Of a stretch of 11,229 nucleotides of DNA, positions 2 through 11,199 are shown in pieces. The position numbers were made by a program, and so were the translations under genes. Numbering within the stretch: the first letter of the stretch is position 1; the number at the start of each line of letters is the position of its first letter. The notes beneath the pieces were generated by a model that was not told where the DNA came from, made no database searches, and was given only the letters and a program-made list of their open reading frames with translations. The stretch is from Paracoccus sp. (in: a-proteobacteria) (GTDB lineage Bacteria > Pseudomonadota > Alphaproteobacteria > Rhodobacterales > Rhodobacteraceae): contig JAGPGI010000048.1 of NCBI GenBank assembly GCA_018056045.1, forward strand, positions 1-11,229, in the 5' to 3' direction.

Positions 2-1111
2 TTAACAATGATCCACATGACAAGGGCATCTGACTGGACCAGCGGAGAAACTGTTCCGGTCTGCTATCGACAGCAGATCAAAGTGGCGGCCGCCTCGGGC
101 GTTACCACCAGAACAACCAGAAGCCACGAGGCAATCCTTGAAGCCTTGGGACTGATTACAAAGGCAGTTGGCGCCGATGGAAGTCGAGGTAAGTTCGGCA
201 AGGGTGAGGTCATTCATGGAATTTCCTTTTCCCCGCTGATCGAGCGGTTCCCTTCCCTTCTCGCCCTGGCCGAGGGGGTAGAGGAAGAAACACGCCATAC
301 CGAAATCTTCCGTCGCAGGTGCAGCGCAGCCCGGCGCAGCTTCAATAAAGCCCTGTCCGTGCTCATAGAGGCGGACCCTAAGAACGCGACGGTGCCCTTG
401 TTTCTTGCGATCAAAGCTGACCTGCCACGCCGCTATGAAGGAATGGGCCTCAATGAGCTGCAGCAGCTTTTTGAGCATGTGGATAACGCCGCCCGGAACT
501 GCTGGGATGCCCTGACTGGAAGCGCAGAATCGACCGTCACGCCGGAAGTTTTCTGCCGCCCTCATATACAAGCTACAACAGAAGCTGATCTTGAATCTTG
601 TAGCGGTTCCTCCGCCAATGATCGGACAGCCCGCAAGCGGGCTGAGGCCGATCGTTACGCTGCCGCGCCTATAGGCGCGGCAGAATGCAGGGAAACAGAT
701 GGTCGCATGTCCGACCGTGGCCACAAGCCGGAATTTACCGAAACGTTCAGCCCGAAGCAGCTCTACTGGATGGCCTCTGAAGACATGCGAATGTATGTCG
801 ATGCGGTCTGCCGGGATTGTAGCAGCCTGACAGGGCATGATTTCGTTCAAGCAGCCATTTCCATCCTTCCCGCGATCGGGATCAATCACTCGGCATGGGA
901 TGAGGCACAGGAGGCAATGGGGGACATGGCGGCCGCCCTGTCGGTTCTGATTATAGACGCGAACCGGCACCATCCCGTGAAGCCCATACATTCGCCTGGC
1001 GGCGCGCTGAGGACGTTCGCGCGGCTTGCAATCGCTGGATGCCTGAACCTGCACGGAAGCCTGATCGGACTAAAACAGAGGATGGAGGCACGGCGCGCGG
1101 AGGACGTCTGA
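2..1111 (+). CDS. repC: Plasmid replication initiator RepC (5' partial)
   Basis: RepC initiates replication of repABC plasmids and chromids by binding the origin, which lies inside its own gene. Residues are numbered from the ATG at 8. Residues 4-50 fit the RepC DNA-binding region: an xxDW stretch, a PVCYRQQ-like segment, then a helix-turn-helix-like VAAASGVTTRTTRSHEAILE and an AGL-type end. Residues 71-115 match the GxxxSPL..R segment followed by a charged helix. Residues 290-358 match the C-terminal domain: GI..S.W.EA...MG, an Ala-rich helix, then IHSPGGALRTF and a short AG.L.L tail. In the family the DW segment is internal, and this frame is open to the window edge, so the real start lies upstream and roughly 60 residues are missing; the ATG at 8 is probably not the start. 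repA and repB would be expected just upstream. The gene is less GC-rich than the metabolic genes downstream. The long minus-strand frame opposite it is a shadow. Identification is by family resemblance. Confidence 0.82.
   Translation, partial: LTMIHMTRASDWTSGETVPVCYRQQIKVAAASGVTTRTTRSHEAILEALGLITKAVGADGSRGKFGKGEVIHGISFSPLIERFPSLLALAEGVEEETRHTEIFRRRCSAARRSFNKALSVLIEADPKNATVPLFLAIKADLPRRYEGMGLNELQQLFEHVDNAARNCWDALTGSAESTVTPEVFCRPHIQATTEADLESCSGSSANDRTARKRAEADRYAAAPIGAAECRETDGRMSDRGHKPEFTETFSPKQLYWMASEDMRMYVDAVCRDCSSLTGHDFVQAAISILPAIGINHSAWDEAQEAMGDMAAALSVLIIDANRHHPVKPIHSPGGALRTFARLAIAGCLNLHGSLIGLKQRMEARRAEDV
572..683. other. Inverted-repeat cluster inside repC, candidate oriV
   Basis: Three inverted repeats lie within 112 bp of the repC linker. 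GCTACAA at 572-578 pairs with TTGTAGC at 598-604. CAGCCCGC at 627-634 pairs with GCGGGCTG at 637-644 across a 2-base loop. Positions 660-683 form a perfect 24-bp palindrome centred on TATA. Positions 561-604 are only 17 of 44 G+C, clearly poorer than the flanks. In repABC replicons the origin is known to sit within the repC coding sequence, in a less GC-rich stretch. The encoded protein here is a low-complexity linker between the two RepC domains, so the DNA is free to carry a second signal. The origin role is inference. The repeats could instead only affect mRNA folding. Confidence 0.45.
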
Positions 1112-1484: not shown

Positions 1485-3161
1485 TCAGAAACTTCGCTGA
1501 TTGACGATTTCCTTCACCAAGGCGACGTCCTGCGGCGCAATCGGGGCGGGCGGCGGGGCGCTTCGACCACGGATCATGTCAGATGCCTTCTCGGCGATCA
1601 TAATCACGGTGGCGTTCAGGTTCGCCCCCACGCAATGCGGCATCGCGGAAGCATCCACCACCCTCAGCCCCTCTATCCCGTTCAGGCGCAGTTGCGGGTC
1701 CAGAACGGCGCCCTGATCCACGCCCATCCGGCAGGTGCAGGACGGGTGGAATTCGGTCTTCACATATTGGCGGAGGGCCGCGTCGATCTCAGAATCCGTC
1801 TGCGCCGTCTCGCCCGGAGCGACCTCAAGCGTCCCCAACCTGGCTAGTGGCCCCCGCGACGTGATCTCACGCGTGACCTTGATGCCTTCGCGCATTTCCA
1901 CCACGTCGCGCGGATCGCTGAAGAAGCGGAAGTCGATCTTGGGGGCATCGCCAGCGGAGGCACTGCGCAGGCTGATCCGGCCCCGGCTGCGCTGGCGCAG
2001 CTGCGACAGGTGCAGGGTAAAGCCGTGCGAGAGGCTGAAGCCGCCATCCGGGCGGGCGTCGATCTTCATAGGCGCCACATGGTAATGCACCGTCGGCAGA
2101 CCGGAATCCTGCATTGCCTTGGCGAAGCCCCCGATCTCCCAGATGTTCGAAGCGCCGGGGCCGGAGCGGTTCAGCAGCCATTCCGTCCCCACCCGCGCCT
2201 TGCCAAGGGTCGATCCCATCCAAGCGTGGGAAATCGGCTCGCTGCAGCTATAGCTCATCCCCATGTCCAGATGGTCCTGCAGATTGCCTCCGACATTGGG
2301 CTGATCTAATGCGACGCGGATGCCCTGCTGGCGCAATTCATCCGCCGGGCCGATGCCGGACAACATCAGCAATTGCGGCGTGTTGATCGCGCCGCCGGAA
2401 AGGATGATCTCGCGGCTCGCCATGGCGGTGTGGCTCTGGCCGCCGGCGCGGTATTCAACGCCCACCGCCTTGGCCCCCTGCAGGATCACCCGCTGCGTCA
2501 GCGCTCCTGTCCGCAGTGTCAGGTTCGTGCGCCCCAACGCCGGGCGCAGATAGCCGACCGAGGCGCTGCAACGGCGCCCGTTGCGCTTGTTGCTGTCCAA
2601 CCGACCGATCCCCACCGCATCCGGTCCGTTCAGGTCGTCGACCAGCCGGTGGCCCGTCGCGACCGAGCTTGCCTCGAAGGCGTCGAAGATCGGCGATTTC
2701 AGGCTGGCCCGGCTGACATGGATCGGGCCGTCGCCACCGTGATAGTCGGATGCGCCCCGGTCCGAGGTTTCGGAGCGTTTGAAATAGGGCAAGCAATGCG
2801 CGAAGCTCCAGTCGCTCAGCCCCTGCGCCGCCCAGGCATCGTAATCCGCCGGATGCGCGCGTAGCCAGACCATCGAGTTGATCGAGGAGGATCCCCCCAG
2901 CGTCCGCCCGCGCGGCACGGGGATGCGGCGATTCATCAGCTCGGGTTGCGGCTCGGAGTCATAGTTCCAGTTGAAGCGGGGGTTGTGGAAGACTTTGTAG
3001 ACCGCCGCCGGGATCATCATCATCAGCGAGCGGTCGTGATGGCCGGCCTCCAGCAGAAGGACTTTGCAGCCGGGATCCTCGGTCAGTCGGGCGGCCAGAA
3101 CGCTGCCCGCGGAGCCCGCGCCCACGATGATGTAGTCATATTCGTCGGCGCGCATGGGCAT
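1485..3161 (-). CDS. GMC-family FAD-dependent alcohol dehydrogenase
   Basis: Predicted flavoprotein of 558 residues that oxidises a primary alcohol to an aldehyde; choline dehydrogenase-like enzymes of the glucose-methanol-choline family are 530-560 residues, so this is full length. The N-terminus has the FAD-binding GAGSAGS (14-20), with E38 at the end of the second strand as the likely ribose ligand. GMC signature 1 is GRTLGGSSSINSMVWLR (85-101). Signature 2 is SGGAINTPQLLMLSG (255-269). The C-terminal domain has HPSCTCRMG (472-480) and VVDASAMP...GANLNAT (501-517); H472 and N516 fit the catalytic His-Asn pair. No signal peptide is visible, so it should be cytoplasmic or loosely membrane-associated. 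The Shine-Dalgarno is weak (an AGACAGG-like run); a second ATG at 3155 is an alternative start. It is divergent from the AcuI-like gene and they share a 329-bp upstream region. Choline, a polyol and a 3-hydroxyacid are all possible substrates; the family does not reveal which. Confidence 0.9.
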   Translation of the reverse strand: MPMRADEYDYIIVGAGSAGSVLAARLTEDPGCKVLLLEAGHHDRSLMMMIPAAVYKVFHNPRFNWNYDSEPQPELMNRRIPVPRGRTLGGSSSINSMVWLRAHPADYDAWAAQGLSDWSFAHCLPYFKRSETSDRGASDYHGGDGPIHVSRASLKSPIFDAFEASSVATGHRLVDDLNGPDAVGIGRLDSNKRNGRRCSASVGYLRPALGRTNLTLRTGALTQRVILQGAKAVGVEYRAGGQSHTAMASREIILSGGAINTPQLLMLSGIGPADELRQQGIRVALDQPNVGGNLQDHLDMGMSYSCSEPISHAWMGSTLGKARVGTEWLLNRSGPGASNIWEIGGFAKAMQDSGLPTVHYHVAPMKIDARPDGGFSLSHGFTLHLSQLRQRSRGRISLRSASAGDAPKIDFRFFSDPRDVVEMREGIKVTREITSRGPLARLGTLEVAPGETAQTDSEIDAALRQYVKTEFHPSCTCRMGVDQGAVLDPQLRLNGIEGLRVVDASAMPHCVGANLNATVIMIAEKASDMIRGRSAPPPAPIAPQDVALVKEIVNQRSF

Positions 3162-3490
3162 GATCAGACCTGTCTTGGGGTGGGATGGGGTGACCGAAGA
3201 CTAGCTGTCCGCGGGCATCGCGAAAGGTGAAAATTCTTGGGTCGATATAACTTCATATTATGGCATGCTACACCGCGACGGGGGGACATCCGCGCGGCAT
3301 CCCGGTTTCCCTTTGCCGGGCAAGGACCTAGGGCGAATTTCTGGGGCAGGACGACCTTTGCCAGAGATCCATGCGCGGCGCTCCACCGCCGCCGCGCGAG
3401 GGGGATGGCTGCAGCGGGCTTGATCTGACCCGCCATCCGCGCCAGCACTGTAGGCGCCATCCGACCGTACACAGAAAGCGGAGACCCGAA
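3162..3490. promoter_or_regulatory. Divergent promoter region
   Basis: This 329-bp gap lies between two genes that point away from each other and must hold both promoters. The AT-rich island at about 3228-3270 (with ATATAACTTCATATTATGG) stands out in GC-rich surroundings and has TATTAT at 3256-3261 and TATAAC at 3245-3250 as -10-like hexamers. TTGGGT at 3237-3242 is only 13 bases from the TATTAT, too close for a standard sigma-70 pair, so no exact promoter can be called. A GCATGC palindrome sits beside the island at 3263-3268. No gene is seen here; the in-frame extension of the downstream ORF back to 3371 is Pro/Arg-rich and not supported. Confidence 0.4.
3480..3483 (+). promoter_or_regulatory. 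Shine-Dalgarno fixing the acuI start
   Basis: GGAG lies 7 bases before the ATG at 3491. It selects that codon over the upstream in-frame ATG at 3371, which would add 40 residues that no AcuI/YhdH relative has. Confidence 0.7.
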
Positions 3491-4480
3491 ATGACCGATG
3501 CCTTCGAAGCCATGCTGATCCAAGATGTGGACGGAAAACCCAAGGCTGGACTGGCCGATCTGACGCTTGCGGACCTGCCCGACAACGAAGTGCTGGTCAA
3601 GATCAGCCATTCCAGTCTGAACTACAAGGACGGGCTGGCGATCACCGGAAAGGGCCGCATCGCGCGGCGGTTGCCCATGGTGGCGGGGATCGATCTGGCC
3701 GGGGTGGTGGTGGAATCGCGCTCCCTGGATTGGAGGGCGGGCGATCGGGTTCTGGTCAACGGCTGGGGCCTATCCGAGACGGAATGGGGCGCCTATTCCC
3801 ACTTCCAGCGGCTGAAGCCGCAGCACCTGACCACCATGCCCACAGATTTCAGCGCCGAGGAGGCGATGGCCATCGGCACCGCCGGGTATACGGCGGCGCT
3901 CTGCGTGCTGGCGCTGGAGCGGCACGGGGTGCTGAAGGGCGACGGAGAGTTTCTCGTGACCGGGGCGGCGGGAGGGGTCGGCACGGTGGCGATTTCACTG
4001 CTGGCCGCGCGGGGGGTAAAGGTAATCGCCTCGACCGGACGGGTGTCGGAGGAAGAGTTCCTCATGGGGCTGGGCGCGAGCGGGATCATCGACAGGGGCA
4101 CGTTGTCCACGCAGGGCAAGATGCTGCAGGCGGAGCGCTGGTCGGGTGGCGTCGACTCGGTCGGCAGCCATACGCTGGTGAATGCGCTGGCGCAGACGGT
4201 TTATGGCGGTGCTATCGCGGCCTGCGGGCTGGCGGGTGGGGCGGATTTGCCGGGCTCGGTCATGCCGCATATCCTGCGTAGCGTGGCGCTGCTGGGCGTC
4301 GATTCTGTCATGTGCCCGCAGGCGCGCCGGGCCGAGGCGTGGGCATTGCTGAACCGCGATCTCGACCGCAAGAAGTTGGCGGCGCTGACCACGGTGGCGC
4401 CGATGGCGGATCTGCCGAAGCTGGCCGAGGAGATCGTGGCCGGCAGGATCCGGGGCCGCACGGTGATCGAGATCGGGTGA
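3491..4480 (+). CDS. acuI: Acrylyl-CoA reductase (NADPH), AcuI/YhdH type
   Basis: Medium-chain dehydrogenase/reductase of 329 residues, the usual length for AcuI and E. coli YhdH. These enzymes reduce acrylyl-CoA to propanoyl-CoA with NADPH. They detoxify a reactive intermediate of DMSP, acrylate and 3-hydroxypropionate metabolism. Visible features: N-terminal GroES-like domain with SHSSLNYKDGLAITGKG (39-55) and VAGIDLAGVV (64-73); NGWGLSE.EWGAYS (90-103), characteristic of this subfamily; the Rossmann motif VTGAAGGVGTVAISLL (156-171); and STGR (181-184), the probable NADPH phosphate-binding loop. There are no zinc-ligand cysteines, as expected for this branch. It is cytoplasmic. It is transcribed away from the GMC dehydrogenase and converges on the transporter operon. 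No acuR regulator, dddL or dmdA is in the window, so a DMSP role is inference; the subfamily call is strong. Confidence 0.9.
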   Translation: MTDAFEAMLIQDVDGKPKAGLADLTLADLPDNEVLVKISHSSLNYKDGLAITGKGRIARRLPMVAGIDLAGVVVESRSLDWRAGDRVLVNGWGLSETEWGAYSHFQRLKPQHLTTMPTDFSAEEAMAIGTAGYTAALCVLALERHGVLKGDGEFLVTGAAGGVGTVAISLLAARGVKVIASTGRVSEEEFLMGLGASGIIDRGTLSTQGKMLQAERWSGGVDSVGSHTLVNALAQTVYGGAIAACGLAGGADLPGSVMPHILRSVALLGVDSVMCPQARRAEAWALLNRDLDRKKLAALTTVAPMADLPKLAEEIVAGRIRGRTVIEIG

Positions 4481-4753: not shown

Positions 4754-6376
4754 TTACGCCGCGCGTGTGGCGATGAGATCGTCCAGCCAGCCGGTCGCCA
4801 TGGCGGGGACCGAGGCGAGGAGCGTCTCGGTATAAGGCTGGTGCGGCGGGGAGAAGACCTCGTCCCGCGTGCCCTGTTCCACGATCCGCCCGTGCTGCAT
4901 CACCACCACCCGATCGGCGATGGCACGAACGACCTCGATGTCATGGGTGATGAAGAGATAGGACACGCCCAGTTCGGCCTTCAGCTTCATCAGCATCCGC
5001 AGGACTTCGGCCTGCACCACCTTGTCCAGCGCCGAGGTGATCTCGTCGCAGACGATCAGCTCGGGGTTCGCGGCGAGAGCGCGCGCGATGGCGACGCGCT
5101 GCTTCTGCCCGCCGGAGAGTTGGCCGGGGGTGCGGTCGGCGTAGCCTGCGTCCAGCTCGACCATCTTCAGAAGTTCGATCAGCCGCGCCTCGCGCTTGGC
5201 CCCCCTCAGCCCGTGATACAGGGCCAGCGGGCGGCCCACGATCTTGCGGACGGTCTGGCGCGGGTTCAGGGCGGTGTCGGCGGATTGGTAGATGATCTGG
5301 ATGCGCTTCAAGGTCTCCAGCGAGCGTTGGCCCAGCTTCGCGGGCAAAGCCTTGCCGTCATAGCTGACCGTTCCCGCCGCAGGCTCCTTCAGGCCCACGA
5401 CCAGCCGCCCGAGGGTGGATTTGCCCGATCCGGACTCACCCACCAAGGCCACGGTTTCCCCCCGGCCCACGGTCAGGGAGATGTCGGTCAGCACCTGGAA
5501 ATCGTGATACTTCGCCGCCACGCCGTTCAGCGCCAGCAGGGAAGCGCCCTTCCGCCCATGATAATGACCATTGCTGACCGACAGTTCATGAATGGCCCAC
5601 AGCGTCTTGGTATAGGCATGCTGCGGCTTGTCCATGATGTCGGCGATCGCCGCCTCCTCGACCACCTCGCCATAGCGCAGCACCACCACGCGATGGGCGA
5701 TCTGGGCGACGACGGCCAGGTCATGGGTGATGTAGATCGCGGCGACTTTGAACTCCTCGATCACCTTGCGGATTGAGATCAGGACCTCGACCTGCGTGGT
5801 CACGTCCAAGGCGGTGGTCGGCTCGTCGAAGACGATCAGGGCCGGATTGCAGATCATCGCCATGGCGATCATGGCGCGCTGCAATTGTCCGCCCGAGACC
5901 TGGTGGGGATAGCGGCTGCCGAAGGTGGCAGGCTCGGGCAGTTGCAGGGCGGTGAACAGGTCCACCGCGCGCTTTTCGGCCTGCGCCCGCGTCATCCCGC
6001 CCCGATCCACCGCGACCATCACGATCTGGTCCATCAGGCGGTGCACCGGGTTGAACGCCGCCTGCGCGCTTTGCGCGACATAGGCGACCTTCGTGCCCCG
6101 AATCTTGCGGCGGGCTTCCTCGGGATCGTCCAGAAGGTTGCGACCGTTCAGTAGCACCTGTCCTTCGGCCACCCGCGCGCCGGGGCGGAAGTAGCCCAGT
6201 GCGGCAAGGCCGATGGTGGATTTGCCCGCGCCGGATTCACCGACCAAACCTACCACCTCGCCCGATCGGACGGTGACGGAGATGCCGTTCACGATGGTGT
6301 TCCAGCGGTCGTTTGACTTCGCCTCGATCTTCAGATCGCGGATCTCGAGTGCAGGACGGGGGGCGGGTGTGGACAT
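4754..6376 (-). CDS. Fused double-NBD ABC ATPase, DppD-DppF type
   Basis: Energises import through the two permeases encoded just upstream in the operon. The 540 residues hold two complete nucleotide-binding domains, replacing the separate D and F subunits of classical peptide transporters. NBD1: Walker A GESGAGKST (46-54), Q-loop Q102, signature SGGQLQR (161-167), Walker B LIVFDEP (180-186), switch H218. NBD2: Walker A GESGSGKST (313-321), Q-loop Q364, signature LSGGQKQR (420-427), Walker B LIVCDE (440-445), switch H478. Each half ends with a piece of the oligopeptide-type tail (P.HAYTKTLW, PHQPYTETLL). All catalytic residues are present, so both sites should hydrolyse ATP. NBD2 has DEITSALD where DEPTSALD is more usual, a substitution I associate with these fused ATPases. 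The start is set by AGGAGG ending 7 bases before the ATG at 6376, one base after the stop of the preceding permease gene. The upstream ATG at 6391 overlaps that permease and the Shine-Dalgarno itself. Substrate is unknown. Confidence 0.92.
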   Translation of the reverse strand: MSTPAPRPALEIRDLKIEAKSNDRWNTIVNGISVTVRSGEVVGLVGESGAGKSTIGLAALGYFRPGARVAEGQVLLNGRNLLDDPEEARRKIRGTKVAYVAQSAQAAFNPVHRLMDQIVMVAVDRGGMTRAQAEKRAVDLFTALQLPEPATFGSRYPHQVSGGQLQRAMIAMAMICNPALIVFDEPTTALDVTTQVEVLISIRKVIEEFKVAAIYITHDLAVVAQIAHRVVVLRYGEVVEEAAIADIMDKPQHAYTKTLWAIHELSVSNGHYHGRKGASLLALNGVAAKYHDFQVLTDISLTVGRGETVALVGESGSGKSTLGRLVVGLKEPAAGTVSYDGKALPAKLGQRSLETLKRIQIIYQSADTALNPRQTVRKIVGRPLALYHGLRGAKREARLIELLKMVELDAGYADRTPGQLSGGQKQRVAIARALAANPELIVCDEITSALDKVVQAEVLRMLMKLKAELGVSYLFITHDIEVVRAIADRVVVMQHGRIVEQGTRDEVFSPPHQPYTETLLASVPAMATGWLDDLIATRAA

Positions 6377-6377
6377 C

Positions 6378-7253
6378 TCAGCCCTCCTCATTCAGGCCGC
6401 TGGCCTTGTTCAGTTGCCAATCAACGACGAAGTTCACGGCGATGGCCAGGAAGGCAATGGCGGCGGCGGGGATCAGCGGGGTGATGTTGCCCATGTTGAT
6501 CAGGGCGGCATTCTCGCGGACCATGGAGCCCCATTCCGCCATGGGCGGCTGGATGCCTACGCCCAAGAAGGACAGGGCAGCGATGTTCAGGAAGATGAAG
6601 CAGAAGCGCATACCCAGTTCCGACAGAAGCAGCGGCAGGATATTGGGAAAGACCTCGTTCACCGCGATCCAGACGAGGCTCTCGCCCCGCACCCGCGCGG
6701 CCTCGACATAGTCCAGGCTGGCCACGTTTAGTGCGGCGGCGCGGGCGATCCGGAAGAAGCGGGTCGAGGTCAGGATCGCGATGATCAGGATCAGGTTTAG
6801 GATAGAGCCGCCGAAGATCGACAAGATCATCAGAATGAAAATCAGGTCGGGGATCGACATGACCGCATCCACGAAGCGCGAGATCACCTGGTCCAAGAGC
6901 CCGCCCACCAGCGCCGCGATCATCCCGGCGAGGCAGCCGATGGTGAAGGAGATCAGCGTGGTCACCAGCGCGATGGAGATGGAGTTGCGCGCACCATAGA
7001 TCAGCCGGGACAGGAAATCGCGGCCCAGCTGATCGGTGCCCAGCAGGAACTCCGCACTCCAGGGCGAATAGGGGGTGCGCGAGACGACCTCGACCTCGCC
7101 ATAGGGGGCGATGAGCGGGGCGAAGACCGCGACGAATACATAGATCACCACGACCACCATGCCGAATTTCGCGGTGAGCGGGGCTTGGCGCGAGGCCCTC
7201 AGCAGCAGGCTCAGGCGGCTGGGCTGGGCAGTGAAGGAGAGGTTGGATTGCAT
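6378..7253 (-). CDS. ABC permease, DppC/OppC-like
   Basis: One of the two inner-membrane channel subunits of the family-5 (peptide/nickel/opine-type) importer. The 291 residues match the usual length. The N-terminal cytoplasmic stretch and first membrane segment (about 29-49) form the OppC N-terminal domain. They are followed by the signature FLLGTDQLGRDFLSRLIYGARNS (69-91). Hydrophobic segments lie near 93-118, 132-163, 205-232 and 258-280. The EAA-type coupling region that docks on the ATPase falls around 184-215 (EAARVRGE, then NEVFPNILP). The family ending SFLGVGIQPP..EWG..V (228-245) is present. The start ATG follows GAGGGGA, which overlaps the stop of the preceding permease gene (9 bases between the genes), indicating tight coupling. 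Confidence 0.92.
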   Translation of the reverse strand: MQSNLSFTAQPSRLSLLLRASRQAPLTAKFGMVVVVIYVFVAVFAPLIAPYGEVEVVSRTPYSPWSAEFLLGTDQLGRDFLSRLIYGARNSISIALVTTLISFTIGCLAGMIAALVGGLLDQVISRFVDAVMSIPDLIFILMILSIFGGSILNLILIIAILTSTRFFRIARAAALNVASLDYVEAARVRGESLVWIAVNEVFPNILPLLLSELGMRFCFIFLNIAALSFLGVGIQPPMAEWGSMVRENAALINMGNITPLIPAAAIAFLAIAVNFVVDWQLNKASGLNEEG

Positions 7254-7262
7254 GTGTTCCCC

Positions 7263-8228
7263 TCAGCGCGGATGCAGAAGGCGTGGATTGCTGACGATCG
7301 AGATGATGTCGGCGATCAGGTTGAAGCCGATATAGGCGGCCGAGAAGATCAGGGCGCAGGCCTGGATGACGGCGATGTCGCGGTTGCGCACGGCGTCGAT
7401 CATCGCCTGGCCGACGCCCGGGTAGACGAAGACCACCTCGACCACGACCACGCCCGAGATGAGATAGGCCAGGTTCAGCGCGACGACGCTGGCGATGGGG
7501 CCGATGGCGTTCGGCAAGGCTTCCCGCATCACCACGCGGCCCTCGGGCTGGCCCTTCAGGCGGGCCATTTCGACATAGGGGCTGGACATGACGGACAGGA
7601 TCGCCGCGCGGGTGTTGCGGGCCATATGGGCTAGGATCACCAGAAGCAGGGTCAGGATCGGCAGGATCATCCGGTAAAGCTGTTCCCCGAAATCCATACT
7701 CGCGCGGATGCCCGCCATGGAAGGGAGCCATTTCAGCTGCACAGCAAGGACCACCATCACCACATAGGCGACCAGGAACTCGGGCACCGAGATGGCCGCC
7801 AGCGTGCTGGTCGACAGGAAGCGGTCCGCAAGCCGGCCCCGATAGCGCGCGCAGAAGATGCCCACCCCGATCGCCAGCGGCACGGCGATGGCGGCCGTGA
7901 TCGAGGCCAGGATCAGCGTGTTCTGCAGCCGCGGCCCGATTACTGCCATCACCGGCCTGCCGGAGAAAGAGGTGCCCAGATCGCCCATCGCCGCATTGCC
8001 CAGCCATTCCACGTAGCGGATTGGTAAGGGGCGGTTCAGGCCCAGTTGTTCCTCCATCGCCGCCACCGCCTCGGGCGTGGCGTTCTGACCTAGGATGGCC
8101 GTGGCATAGCTGCCGGGCAGCAGCTCCACCGATGAGAAGATCACCAGCGTCACAATCAGCAGGCTTAGCAGCCCAAGACCGATCCGACTGACTGTCATCG
8201 ACAGGATCGGATGGGATTTGCGTGTCAT
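7263..8228 (-). CDS. ABC permease, DppB/OppB-like
   Basis: Partner channel subunit of the importer, 321 residues, the normal DppB length. Hydrophobic segments lie near 12-34, 104-126, 142-166, 186-206, 243-270 and 285-312. Family marks include LPGSYATAILGQNATPEAVAAM.EQLGL (37-64), Y.EWLGNAAMGDLGTSF (72-88), the EAA coupling loop KGQPEGRVVMREALPNAIGPI (225-245), and VVVEVVFVYPGVGQ (261-274). The ATG at 8228 begins MTRKSHP directly before the first membrane segment. A longer frame to 8405 adds 59 residues that overlap the end of the upstream gene and look unlike the family. The Shine-Dalgarno is weak (GGAG about 12 bases upstream); an ATG at 8198 is an alternative start. It is separated from the binding-protein stop by 133 bp containing two hairpins. 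Confidence 0.9.
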   Translation of the reverse strand: MTRKSHPILSMTVSRIGLGLLSLLIVTLVIFSSVELLPGSYATAILGQNATPEAVAAMEEQLGLNRPLPIRYVEWLGNAAMGDLGTSFSGRPVMAVIGPRLQNTLILASITAAIAVPLAIGVGIFCARYRGRLADRFLSTSTLAAISVPEFLVAYVVMVVLAVQLKWLPSMAGIRASMDFGEQLYRMILPILTLLLVILAHMARNTRAAILSVMSSPYVEMARLKGQPEGRVVMREALPNAIGPIASVVALNLAYLISGVVVVEVVFVYPGVGQAMIDAVRNRDIAVIQACALIFSAAYIGFNLIADIISIVSNPRLLHPR

Positions 8229-8361: not shown

Positions 8362-9855
8362 TCAGGCGGTCTTCCACCAGCGTTCGCACATGCGCATATT
8401 GTCATTGGGCATCAGCCCGCCGATATCGGCATGGCCGACCGCATTCGACACCGCAAAGCGCCAATCCACAAAGGCCACGGTGATCATGTTGCCTTCGTTG
8501 TGGATGATCTCCTGCATCTCGGCATAGGCTGCGGTGCGCTTCGCCACATCGGTCTCGGCCCGGGCCTGGGCGTGCAGCTCGTCAAAACGGGCGTTGGACC
8601 AGCCGGTGTTCCAAGGCGCATCCGAGGTGTAGATGGTCGAGAACAGCCAGTCGACCGTCGCCCGGCCGAACCAGTCGACCCCGGCGAAGGGCTTCTTCAG
8701 CCAGACATTTTCCCAATAGCCATCGGTGGCTTCCTGGATCACGTTGATGGTGATCCCGGCGGGCGCGGCGTGTTCCTTGAACAGTACCGCCGCCTCGATG
8801 GCACCGGGGAAGGCGTTCTCGGCCACCGACAGATCGACGGTGACGGTTTCCAGACCTGCCTTTGCCAGATGCTCCTTGGCCTTCTCTATGCTGTATTCGC
8901 GCTGCGGCATCTCGTGATAGAAGGTCTGGATGGTCGAGACCGGGTTGTCGTTGCCCTTCTTCCCCTCGCCCAGGAACACCTTCTCGATGATGTCGTCACG
9001 GTCGATGGCGTATTTCAGCGCGAGGCGGACATCCGGGTTGTCGAAAGGCGCGACCGTCGTGTCCATGTCGAACGAGAAATGCCGCAGGCTGGGCACGCGC
9101 AGCACCGTGAAATCGGCGCTGCTCTCGATCATCGCGACGTTGCGGATGTCCACATCGGTGATGACATCGACCTCACCGGTCAAAAGCGCGTTCAGCCGCG
9201 CCGTGGCATCGGGGATCCCGATGAATTCGCAGGAATCGACATGCGGAAGGTCCGCCTTGTGGTAGTTCGGATTGCGCGCCAAGGTGGTGGCGATGCCTGG
9301 CTCGAAGCTGTCCAGCAGGAAGGCGCCGGTCCCCACGCCTGACATGTCGATCCCGCCGCCCTCGAGCGCCGGAAGGATCGACAGGTGATAGTCCGACAGC
9401 AGGAAGGGGAAGTCGGCATTGCCGTCGGTCAAGGTGAAGATGACCGTATCCGTCCCCTCGATGTCGATCTGCGAGATCTGCTTGACGATCGCCAGCGCCG
9501 CCGAGGTCGAGCCCTCCTTCATGTGATGCAGGAAGGACTGGCGGATGTCTTCCAGCGTCAGATCGCGGCCGTCATGGAACTTGATGCCCTGGCGGATCTT
9601 GAAACGCCAGACGGCGGCACCCGTCTCCGGCTCCCAGCTTTCGGCCAGATCCGCGCCGACCGAGCCGTCGGGCAGGATCTCGACCAAATTGTTGTAGATG
9701 CCGCCGTTGAAGCTAGTGCCGGTCCAGCTGGTGCTCCAGGTGCCCGGATCCAGGTTGTCGTTCTGCGAGGCGTTCGGCTGGCCGATGCGCAGTACCCCTC
9801 CTTGGACAGGCGCGCCTTGCGCGCGGGCCATGCCCGGCACGCCCATCGCGGCGGC
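8362..9855 (-). pseudogene. Family-5 solute-binding protein part, signal peptide lost
   Basis: In the intact form this would be the periplasmic receptor of the importer. Residues of the fusion are used for numbering. AMGVPGMARA then QG (451-462) looks like the end of an export signal and its cleavage site; the positively charged start and most of the hydrophobic core are missing. The mature body is complete: GGVLRIGQPNA (467-477), then ESWEPETGAAVWRFKIRQGIKFHDGRDLT.ED (the family-5 signature region, about 524-555), a hydrophobic core, VRLALKYAIDRDDIIEKV near 740-757, and a normal C-terminus ending CERWWKTA. In the fusion, about 450 cytoplasmic residues precede it, so export by Sec or Tat is not expected. 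The ligand is unknown; this family includes peptide, nickel, opine and sugar binders. Confidence 0.8.
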
Positions 9856-11199
9856 AAGGACAGTCTCCACCTCGCGCGCGGCGATGTTCTCGGCGGAGCG
9901 GCGAATCATGTCCTTCTTGCGGCCGACGATGTAGTAGAATCCGTCCCCGTCCTGCCGGAACAGATCCCCGGTCGAGAACCAGCCATCCTTCAGGACCTCG
10001 GCCGTGGCCTTGGGGTTGTTGTAATAGCCCAGCATGATCCCGGGTCCGCGCAGTTGCAGCTCTCCGACTTCGCCCGGCGGGACCGGCTGGCCGTCCTCTC
10101 CCACGATCCGGCATTCGCGGAACGGGCATGGGACGCCGCAGGAGCCGGAGCCGACCTTGTCCGCGCGCTCGATGGGGACGAACATGGAGGGGCCTAGCTC
10201 GGTCATCCCGAAGGCCTCACGTGCGTTCAGATCGAAGCGCTGTTCAAGGCCCTCATGCAGACCCTTGGGGCAGCCGTAGATGTTCGCGCGGATGATGCGG
10301 TTGTCGGCATCATGCGCCTGCGGCTCCATCCCGTGCAGCACCCAGGGGAGCAGGCAGAACTCGATGTCGAACTCTTTCAGCCAACCCGAGAAGCGGCTGG
10401 TGGATTGCTTGGCCGCAACGAACAGCGTGCCGCGTTGGAACAGCGTCATCAGCAGCAGCCATTGCGGGTCCATGTAGAAGAACGGGGTCGAGGCGAGGAG
10501 GCGGCGGTAGCGCCGACCATCGCGAAAAGCGTTCACCTTGCCGGCGGAGATCCAGTAGCGCTGCGACAACATGCAGCCCTTGGGGAAGCCCGTGGTGCCC
10601 GAGGTGAACTGGATGTTCAGCAGGTCGTCATGTCCCACGGGGTCCGGCGCGGTGAAGCTGTCCGCAGGGCTGGAGGTCAAGACTTGCCAGTCATGCGCAC
10701 CCTTCGGCACCTCGCCACCGACCACGAGCATCTTCTCGGGCGGGAAGTTCACCAGCCCCTCGGTATGGGCCTGGTCCAGCGTGGCGCGGGTGTCGGCATG
10801 GGTGACGATCCATTCCGCCTCGGCCACCTTGGTCACATGCTCGATCTCGCGCGGGCGGTAGCCGGGGTTGATCGGCAGCATGACGGCGCCGATGCGGCCC
10901 AAAGCCAGCCAGGTCAGCGGGAAGGCCGCGATGTTCGGCAGCATCACGCCGACATGGGTGCCCTTGCGGATGCCCAAAGCGACGAAGGCCGCCGCCAGCC
11001 CGTTCACCTGCCGCCGCATCTGCGCGTAGGTGATCGTCTCGCCGCTGTCGAAGAAATTCCAGAGAAGCTGATCGCCCGCCGCCTCGGCCGCCTTGTCGAT
11101 CAGGGCGCCGATGTTTTCCGGCAAAGGATCGGCCTCGATCCGGCGGCGGCGTTCCTCGTAGGGAACAACGGGTTCGGACAGGACCTGGTCCTTCCACAT
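8362..11199 (-). CDS. Chimera: truncated acyl-CoA ligase fused to ABC solute-binding protein
   Basis: A single uninterrupted 945-residue frame joins two unrelated proteins. Residues 1-448 are an ANL-superfamily AMP-forming acyl-CoA ligase. Residues 451-945 are a family-5 solute-binding protein (DppA/OppA type). The switch occurs within VETVLAAAMGVPGMARA (444-460), so the junction lies near 9844-9858, in GCC/GCG-rich sequence suited to a short-homology deletion. The ligase lacks its C-terminal subdomain and the binding protein lacks the front of its signal peptide. I know of no natural protein with this arrangement, and the halves belong in different compartments. The start at 11199 is preceded by GGAGAAAG at good spacing and matches ligase N-termini. 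The next genes are the permeases and ATPase of the same importer family. A real deletion allele or a misassembly are the two candidate explanations; a functional fusion is least likely. Confidence 0.85.
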   Translation of the reverse strand: MWKDQVLSEPVVPYEERRRRIEADPLPENIGALIDKAAEAAGDQLLWNFFDSGETITYAQMRRQVNGLAAAFVALGIRKGTHVGVMLPNIAAFPLTWLALGRIGAVMLPINPGYRPREIEHVTKVAEAEWIVTHADTRATLDQAHTEGLVNFPPEKMLVVGGEVPKGAHDWQVLTSSPADSFTAPDPVGHDDLLNIQFTSGTTGFPKGCMLSQRYWISAGKVNAFRDGRRYRRLLASTPFFYMDPQWLLLMTLFQRGTLFVAAKQSTSRFSGWLKEFDIEFCLLPWVLHGMEPQAHDADNRIIRANIYGCPKGLHEGLEQRFDLNAREAFGMTELGPSMFVPIERADKVGSGSCGVPCPFRECRIVGEDGQPVPPGEVGELQLRGPGIMLGYYNNPKATAEVLKDGWFSTGDLFRQDGDGFYYIVGRKKDMIRRSAENIAAREVETVLAAAMGVPGMARAQGAPVQGGVLRIGQPNASQNDNLDPGTWSTSWTGTSFNGGIYNNLVEILPDGSVGADLAESWEPETGAAVWRFKIRQGIKFHDGRDLTLEDIRQSFLHHMKEGSTSAALAIVKQISQIDIEGTDTVIFTLTDGNADFPFLLSDYHLSILPALEGGGIDMSGVGTGAFLLDSFEPGIATTLARNPNYHKADLPHVDSCEFIGIPDATARLNALLTGEVDVITDVDIRNVAMIESSADFTVLRVPSLRHFSFDMDTTVAPFDNPDVRLALKYAIDRDDIIEKVFLGEGKKGNDNPVSTIQTFYHEMPQREYSIEKAKEHLAKAGLETVTVDLSVAENAFPGAIEAAVLFKEHAAPAGITINVIQEATDGYWENVWLKKPFAGVDWFGRATVDWLFSTIYTSDAPWNTGWSNARFDELHAQARAETDVAKRTAAYAEMQEIIHNEGNMITVAFVDWRFAVSNAVGHADIGGLMPNDNMRMCERWWKTA
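9856..11199 (-). pseudogene. Acyl-CoA ligase part, C-terminally truncated
   Basis: The intact enzyme would activate a carboxylic acid with ATP and CoA through an acyl-adenylate. The P-loop motif FTSGTTGFPKGCML is at 198-211, the A5 motif AFGMTELG at 329-336, A7 STGDL at 409-413, and the A8 hinge GRKKDMIRRSAENIAAREVE at 426-445. It resembles the CaiC-like (crotonobetaine/carnitine-CoA ligase-like) and medium-chain ligase branch, but the substrate is not determinable. ANL ligases are usually 510-560 residues. Roughly the last 90-100 are absent, including the A10 motif whose lysine catalyses adenylation and the lid that rotates for thioester formation. Activity of this half is therefore expected to be lost or strongly reduced. 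Confidence 0.8.

Follow-up and report, generated by a model that had tools for sequence, protein, structure and literature searches.

An in-frame fusion of ligase and binding-protein genes in a Paracoccus gene cluster is probably a deletion product

How does one uninterrupted reading frame come to begin as an acyl-CoA ligase and to end as the solute-binding protein (SBP) of an ABC transporter? The question is raised by the stretch of DNA analysed here (the window; 11,229 nt), which is the entire contig C425 of a 3.04-Mb, 491-contig, 71.8%-complete metagenome-assembled genome (MAG) of Paracoccus. A first-pass annotation took the junction for either a deletion or an assembly collapse.

Results

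One frame carries parts of a ligase and a binding protein

The fusion is a single open reading frame of 945 codons on the minus strand (window 11199..8362), encoding 945 aa with zero internal stops. Pfam AMP-binding matched residues 47-393 (6.6e-63) and SBP_bac_5 matched residues 516-860 (7.7e-67), and no match to AMP-binding_C was found in the 945-aa protein; that domain is present in the intact Tabrizicola soli ligase. The N-terminal part (9847..11199, minus strand; residues 1-451) is a class I adenylate-forming acyl-CoA ligase; the ligases encoded at the 12 nearest loci (L035-L044, L046 and L069) are 79-84% identical to it in amino acids. The motifs of ANL ligases are named A3, A5, A7, A8 and A10, and the fusion carries A3 at residue 198, A5 at 330, A7 at 409 and A8 at 426. 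A scan with a loose A10 pattern gave no match in the fusion; 32 of 69 relatives did match it, among them all 20 nearest ones examined (L035-L044 and L046-L055); it is informative among near kin only, most remoter ligase relatives having no match.

The rest of the frame (8362..9846, minus strand) is a family 5 binding protein (SBP1), consisting of the end of a Tat-type signal (VPGMARAQG) and the mature protein. The intact binding proteins inspected start with a Tat-type signal containing SRRxFL. Judged by eye, SRR(A/E)FL lies upstream in all 6 intact binding proteins and in 4 loci inspected, and this n-region is absent from the binding-protein half of the fusion.

Comparison with ligase and SBP relatives showed that the frame is ligase-like up to ...ENIAAREVETVLAA(A) and SBP-like from (A)MGVPGMARAQG, which placed the joint in codons 449-452 (A A A M; 9844..9855, minus strand). 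These codons are ambiguous, as a ligase sequence of the VLAAAPGV type meets an SBP signal peptide of the LAA..AM type. The fusion passes from VETVLAA(A) to (A)MGVPGMARAQG, and the intact ligases inspected go on as VL(A/S)AAPGV. The in-frame ligase-SBP junction annotated at 9836..9866 was thus confirmed, with the four codons falling inside that span. No DNA hairpin was found at the joint (z 0.36).

Five genes separate the ligase and the binding protein in relatives

Among genome contigs, 71 related loci were found, two of which (L034 and L045) are the window's own locus. Ligase and binding protein were separate and in the same direction in 16 of the others and in three further genomes (L161, L163 and L164; L162 was left out, its sequence being the same as that of L041). 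The spacing in these 19 loci was 6,300-7,687 nt, and every interval held an amine oxidase/FAD protein, an amidohydrolase, a TetR gene, a deacetylase-like gene and an amidase. What lies between the two genes in relatives, a comparison proposed in the first-pass annotation, is therefore 6.3-7.7 kb of DNA with five genes. In full, the ligase gene was followed by the five genes, one binding-protein gene or more often two, a pair of permease genes and the ATPase gene. This agrees with the ancestral order that had been suggested (ligase, possibly other genes, binding protein, permease, permease, ATPase), to which it adds the interval genes and, mostly, an extra binding protein. The block was partly inverted in L040, where the ligase is complete; the contigs of L046 and L052 end ahead of any binding protein, and the other 50 loci hold ligase relatives in different settings.

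Of 69 related ligases with a frame that ends within the locus, 68 ran 85-114 codons past the aligned part before the stop. The exception (L074 10001-11344) is a ligase relative whose frame stops 7 codons past the aligned part, possibly through a frameshift.

No second fusion was found among relatives

In a protein search with 8000 candidates scored and 3134 hits, only the query's own sequence (P0001) spanned both halves among the best 120 of the 3134; the rest of these 120 were separate ligases or separate binding proteins with 47-55% query coverage. DNA searches of 125 genus and 394 family genomes (own genome counted in each), most of them without the locus, gave among the matches listed no fusion save that of the own genome. 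At E <= 1e-60 the genus search matched only the own genome, G456 and G491; ligase and binding-protein halves are separate in G456, G491, G112, G300 and G324 (the last judged by search coordinates alone). Among the matches listed for 61 genomes there was likewise no fusion; some distant ligases sit in open frames as long as 951 aa, but these matched the query over its ligase half only. PLSDB gave no close DNA match, and at the protein level none of 689 records had one place covering 80% of the query, the 25 listed covering 45-55%. Fused orthologues, which would speak against a one-off scar, were thus found by neither protein nor DNA searches among relatives.

Short homology at the break sites

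The first-pass annotation also pointed to a GCC/GCC/GCG run at the joint as suited to a short-homology deletion. The longest identical stretch between the two break sites was 6-11 nt in 10 relatives. The 11 nt seen in L039, L044 and L069 exceeded nearly all random pairs, L039 and L069 being close kin, and the 6-7 nt of the other seven were not above random pairs. The argument is therefore weak, the identity beating random pairs in three of the 10 relatives and lying at background in seven. Judged from relatives, short-homology deletion would be a plausible mechanism.

The joint recurs in a second assembly

Contig JAGPEG010000010.1 of Tabrizicola sp. Gw_SlAct_bin_90 (bin_90) is identical to C425 over 1,441 nt. 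The match begins 30 nt upstream of the ligase and runs, joint included, until the contig ends 55 nt past codon 452. A second bin_90 contig (JAGPEG010000137.1) begins 49 nt past codon 452 and is identical over the next 7,793 nt. The two contigs overlap by 7 nt only, about 50 nt past the joint, and this break looks like a coverage hole or a dead end. The neighbouring contig of the window's bin, C266, aligned with bin_90 from end to end and differed at 2 of 16,395 nt; these SNPs, situated 1,986 and 89 nt from the contig end, could be errors. In bin_90 the GMC oxidoreductase gene, which is whole in the window, is interrupted between window positions 2003 and 2002, where an ISKra4-type element starts (L045 7794-8320; a call on a 150-aa fragment whose 102 bits fall short of the whole-protein cut-off of 205). 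The two SNPs and the insertion indicate that the loci of the two MAGs are not one assembled sequence.

Outside the window's assembly the joint is thus reproduced in L034 and also on a 9,504-base contig (not 11,229) in the protein database, which encodes the same 945-aa protein (P0001, 100%) and may stem from the same reads. The two MAGs and this contig may not stem from independent samples, which would weigh against the deletion reading. C425 and C266 overlap by exactly 127 nt, which we infer to be as in raw contigs of a k=127 graph. Since two versions of the locus that are not identical have this joint in common, and the protein recurs on the 9,504-base contig, we read it as a true deletion; the break of the bin_90 contigs next to the joint weighs the other way. 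Between the two options of the first-pass annotation, deletion is favoured by the order in relatives and by a second assembly that differs by two SNPs and an IS; collapse is less probable.

The same locus, 99.98-100% identical (L034, L045, L105 and the window), occurs in MAGs placed in two genera, Paracoccus and Tabrizicola, through either a shared plasmid or mis-binning. That the two MAGs are one organism was rejected, because two other contigs of the 491 in the window's bin matched bin_90 at 66-93% only (longest stretch 1,208 nt at 76%). Our reading is that the bins represent different organisms with this locus in common, or that one of the two bins has received the locus by mis-binning. In tetranucleotide profile, C425 and C266 correlated better with a few short bin_90 pieces (0.966 and 0.973) than with five further contigs from the window's bin (0.916-0.955 for C425 and 0.949-0.969 for C266), few samples in all.

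The rest of the locus and its plasmid setting

Downstream of the fusion, all on the minus strand, lie ABC permease 1 (7263..8228; Pfam BPD_transp_1; start codon chosen by us, the frame being open from 8405), ABC permease 2 (6378..7253; BPD_transp_1 and OppC_N), an ABC ATPase with two ABC_tran stretches (4754..6391; ABC_tran and oligo_HPY) and the full-length GMC oxidoreductase (1485..3161; GMC_oxred_N/C), which is 77% identical to its T. soli counterpart in the same cluster. An alcohol-dehydrogenase-type gene (3371-4480, plus strand) lies between the ATPase and GMC genes on the opposite strand; no such gene was seen in six relatives with both neighbours visible (L036-L039, L069 and L164). SBP2, a second binding protein whose signal is of the Tat type (L105 12644-14431, minus strand), is encoded on C266. 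It adjoins a LysR gene, and in 12 relatives with two binding proteins the second is placed between SBP1 and the permeases.

At the contig edge, a RepC-like replication protein (8-1108, plus strand), cut by the edge with its frame open there, scored above the cut-off for Pfam RP-C and RP-C_C, and reached 93 bits with NCBIfam RepABC_RepC, below that model's cut-off of 150. Its best PLSDB match was 54% identical (Gemmobacter fulvus). The presence of this gene on the same contig suggests that the locus is carried on a RepABC-type plasmid.

A contig with the interval genes differs from the window locus

The window's bin contains a further contig, C264 (L108 1-4878; 4,878 nt), which carries a partial amidase, the deacetylase-like gene, TetR, the amidohydrolase and a partial amine oxidase in the relatives' order. 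It is cut at both ends, inside the amidase and about 240 nt into the amine oxidase. GC3 was 77.5 for C264 versus 86.0 for the C425 genes, a gap of 8.5 points, and the flank-minus-interval difference was 0-5.1 points in 18 distinct relatives (L046, with few codons, -0.8). The C264 proteins were 84.4-86.4% identical to Rhodobacter/Cereibacter/Paracoccus copies (L041-L044 and L161-L163) and grouped with them in the tree. C425 was 77.5-80.0% identical to the copies with the full flank set (L042-L044 and L161-L163) and fell elsewhere in the tree (support 0.94; neighbouring split only 0.57). The tetranucleotide profile of C264 correlated at 0.932 with C425 and 0.952 with C266. We considered C264 simply as the missing middle, against which GC3 and the tree argue, though not conclusively. 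On this discordance with the window locus, C264 probably stems from a different strain or organism or from a separate copy. In bin_90 nothing closely matching C264 turned up (40 of 174 candidates scored), and a DNA search of the window's bin (40 of 270 candidates scored; bin 71.8% complete) found no ligase C-terminus or SBP1 5' end belonging to C264.

The fused halves show no extra decay

Own-locus changes at columns invariant in all other representatives numbered 13/447 in the ligase part, 17/483 in SBP1, 11/327 in permease 1, 9/281 in permease 2 and 6/200 in the ATPase, and were lower in AldDH (10/437) and SBP2 (7/482). Per 100 columns, the fused halves had 2.9 and 3.5 unusual substitutions versus 3.0-3.4 in the permeases and ATPase. 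SBP2 aside, the own locus had the highest count of the nine representatives in every one of these genes, six in all. The pattern points to divergence of the whole locus, not of the fused halves in particular, and would fit a recent event. The earlier description of the allele as recent agrees with this absence of extra decay.

Discussion

We consider it likely that a real deletion made this in-frame fusion in a gene cluster that probably resides on a RepABC-type plasmid. Direct observations are the open frame, the absence of domains from both halves, the unbroken gene order of the relatives and a joint that two assemblies share, and around them the following course can be proposed. The plasmid's ancestor would have had the usual interval of about 6.3 kb. 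Recombination between short similar stretches of Ala codons may then have formed the joint, removing the last ~100 ligase codons (about a fifth), the following genes and the first ~37 SBP1 codons with the Tat n-region, from a cluster apparently of the amine/amide-catabolic type; the ends would have rejoined in frame by chance. The A10 lysine of the ligase C-domain has a recognised role in these enzymes. With neither the domain that holds it nor an export signal, both functions would be lost, so the product is predicted to be inactive as a ligase and not exported. Going by its sequence, the fusion is probably a broken, non-functional remnant rather than a new kind of protein. Since the permease, ATPase and GMC genes are full length and SBP2 has a Tat-type signal, transport may persist, and SBP2 could serve the permeases.

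The joint might instead be an assembly chimera across a coverage hole, with a true order of ligase, amine oxidase, amidohydrolase, TetR, deacetylase, amidase and SBP1, and with C264 as the excised middle. C264 sits in the same bin, holds the relatives' interval in order and ends within its two outer genes, and the two bin_90 contigs, which overlap by 7 nt, break off about 50 nt beyond the joint; however, an artefact would have to recur in two assemblies set apart by SNPs and an IS and in the protein of the 9,504-base contig, C264 is discordant with C425 in GC3 and tree placement, and the 40 bin_90 candidates scored include no close C264 match. We regard this as unlikely. Somewhat less likely still is a mixed population in which the deletion allele (C425) occurs beside an intact allele or second cluster copy (C264) of the same or a neighbouring strain. 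It would account for two contigs in one bin that are unlike in GC3 and phylogeny, and for a GMC gene that is intact in one assembly and broken by the IS in the other, but the candidates scored in the incomplete bin held no C264-type ligase C-terminus or SBP1 5' end; on this reading the deletion is in any case real.

It is very improbable that the fusion is functional and under selection, with a cytoplasmic binding domain tethered to the ligase N-domain. The frame is open and neither half is more decayed than the permeases and ATPase, but a recent deletion would likewise show no decay, the A10/C-domain and the Tat n-region are lost, and the relatives searched hold no fused orthologue. Just as improbable is a working protein that would combine partial chemistry of the ligase N-domain with cytoplasmic substrate binding and would have spread by plasmid in Paracoccus and Tabrizicola.

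With a real deletion as the preferred reading, the 945-aa entry should be annotated as a deletion product, neither a ligase nor a binding protein, and neither an intact pathway in the window's bin nor its ownership of these contigs should be presumed. A catabolic cluster, probably plasmid-borne, loses steps here while its permease and ATPase genes remain intact. The first-pass annotation was mostly right, in that its observation and its deletion interpretation stand, and the biology is ordinary.

Compared with ANL acyl-CoA ligases, which consist of AMP-binding and AMP-binding_C, the fusion shares the N-domain with A3, A5, A7 and A8 but has a binding protein in place of the C-domain with A10. 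Like family 5 peptide/nickel-type solute-binding proteins, it keeps the mature SBP_bac_5 domain and is followed by its own permeases and ATPase; unlike them, it is without the Tat-type SRRxFL signal and its frame starts far upstream, inside the ligase. In-frame gene fusions that arise by deletion between short matching sequences form a known class. As in those, two genes of a cluster are joined here and the intervening DNA is lost, whereas the microhomology at this joint is at background level in seven of 10 relatives.
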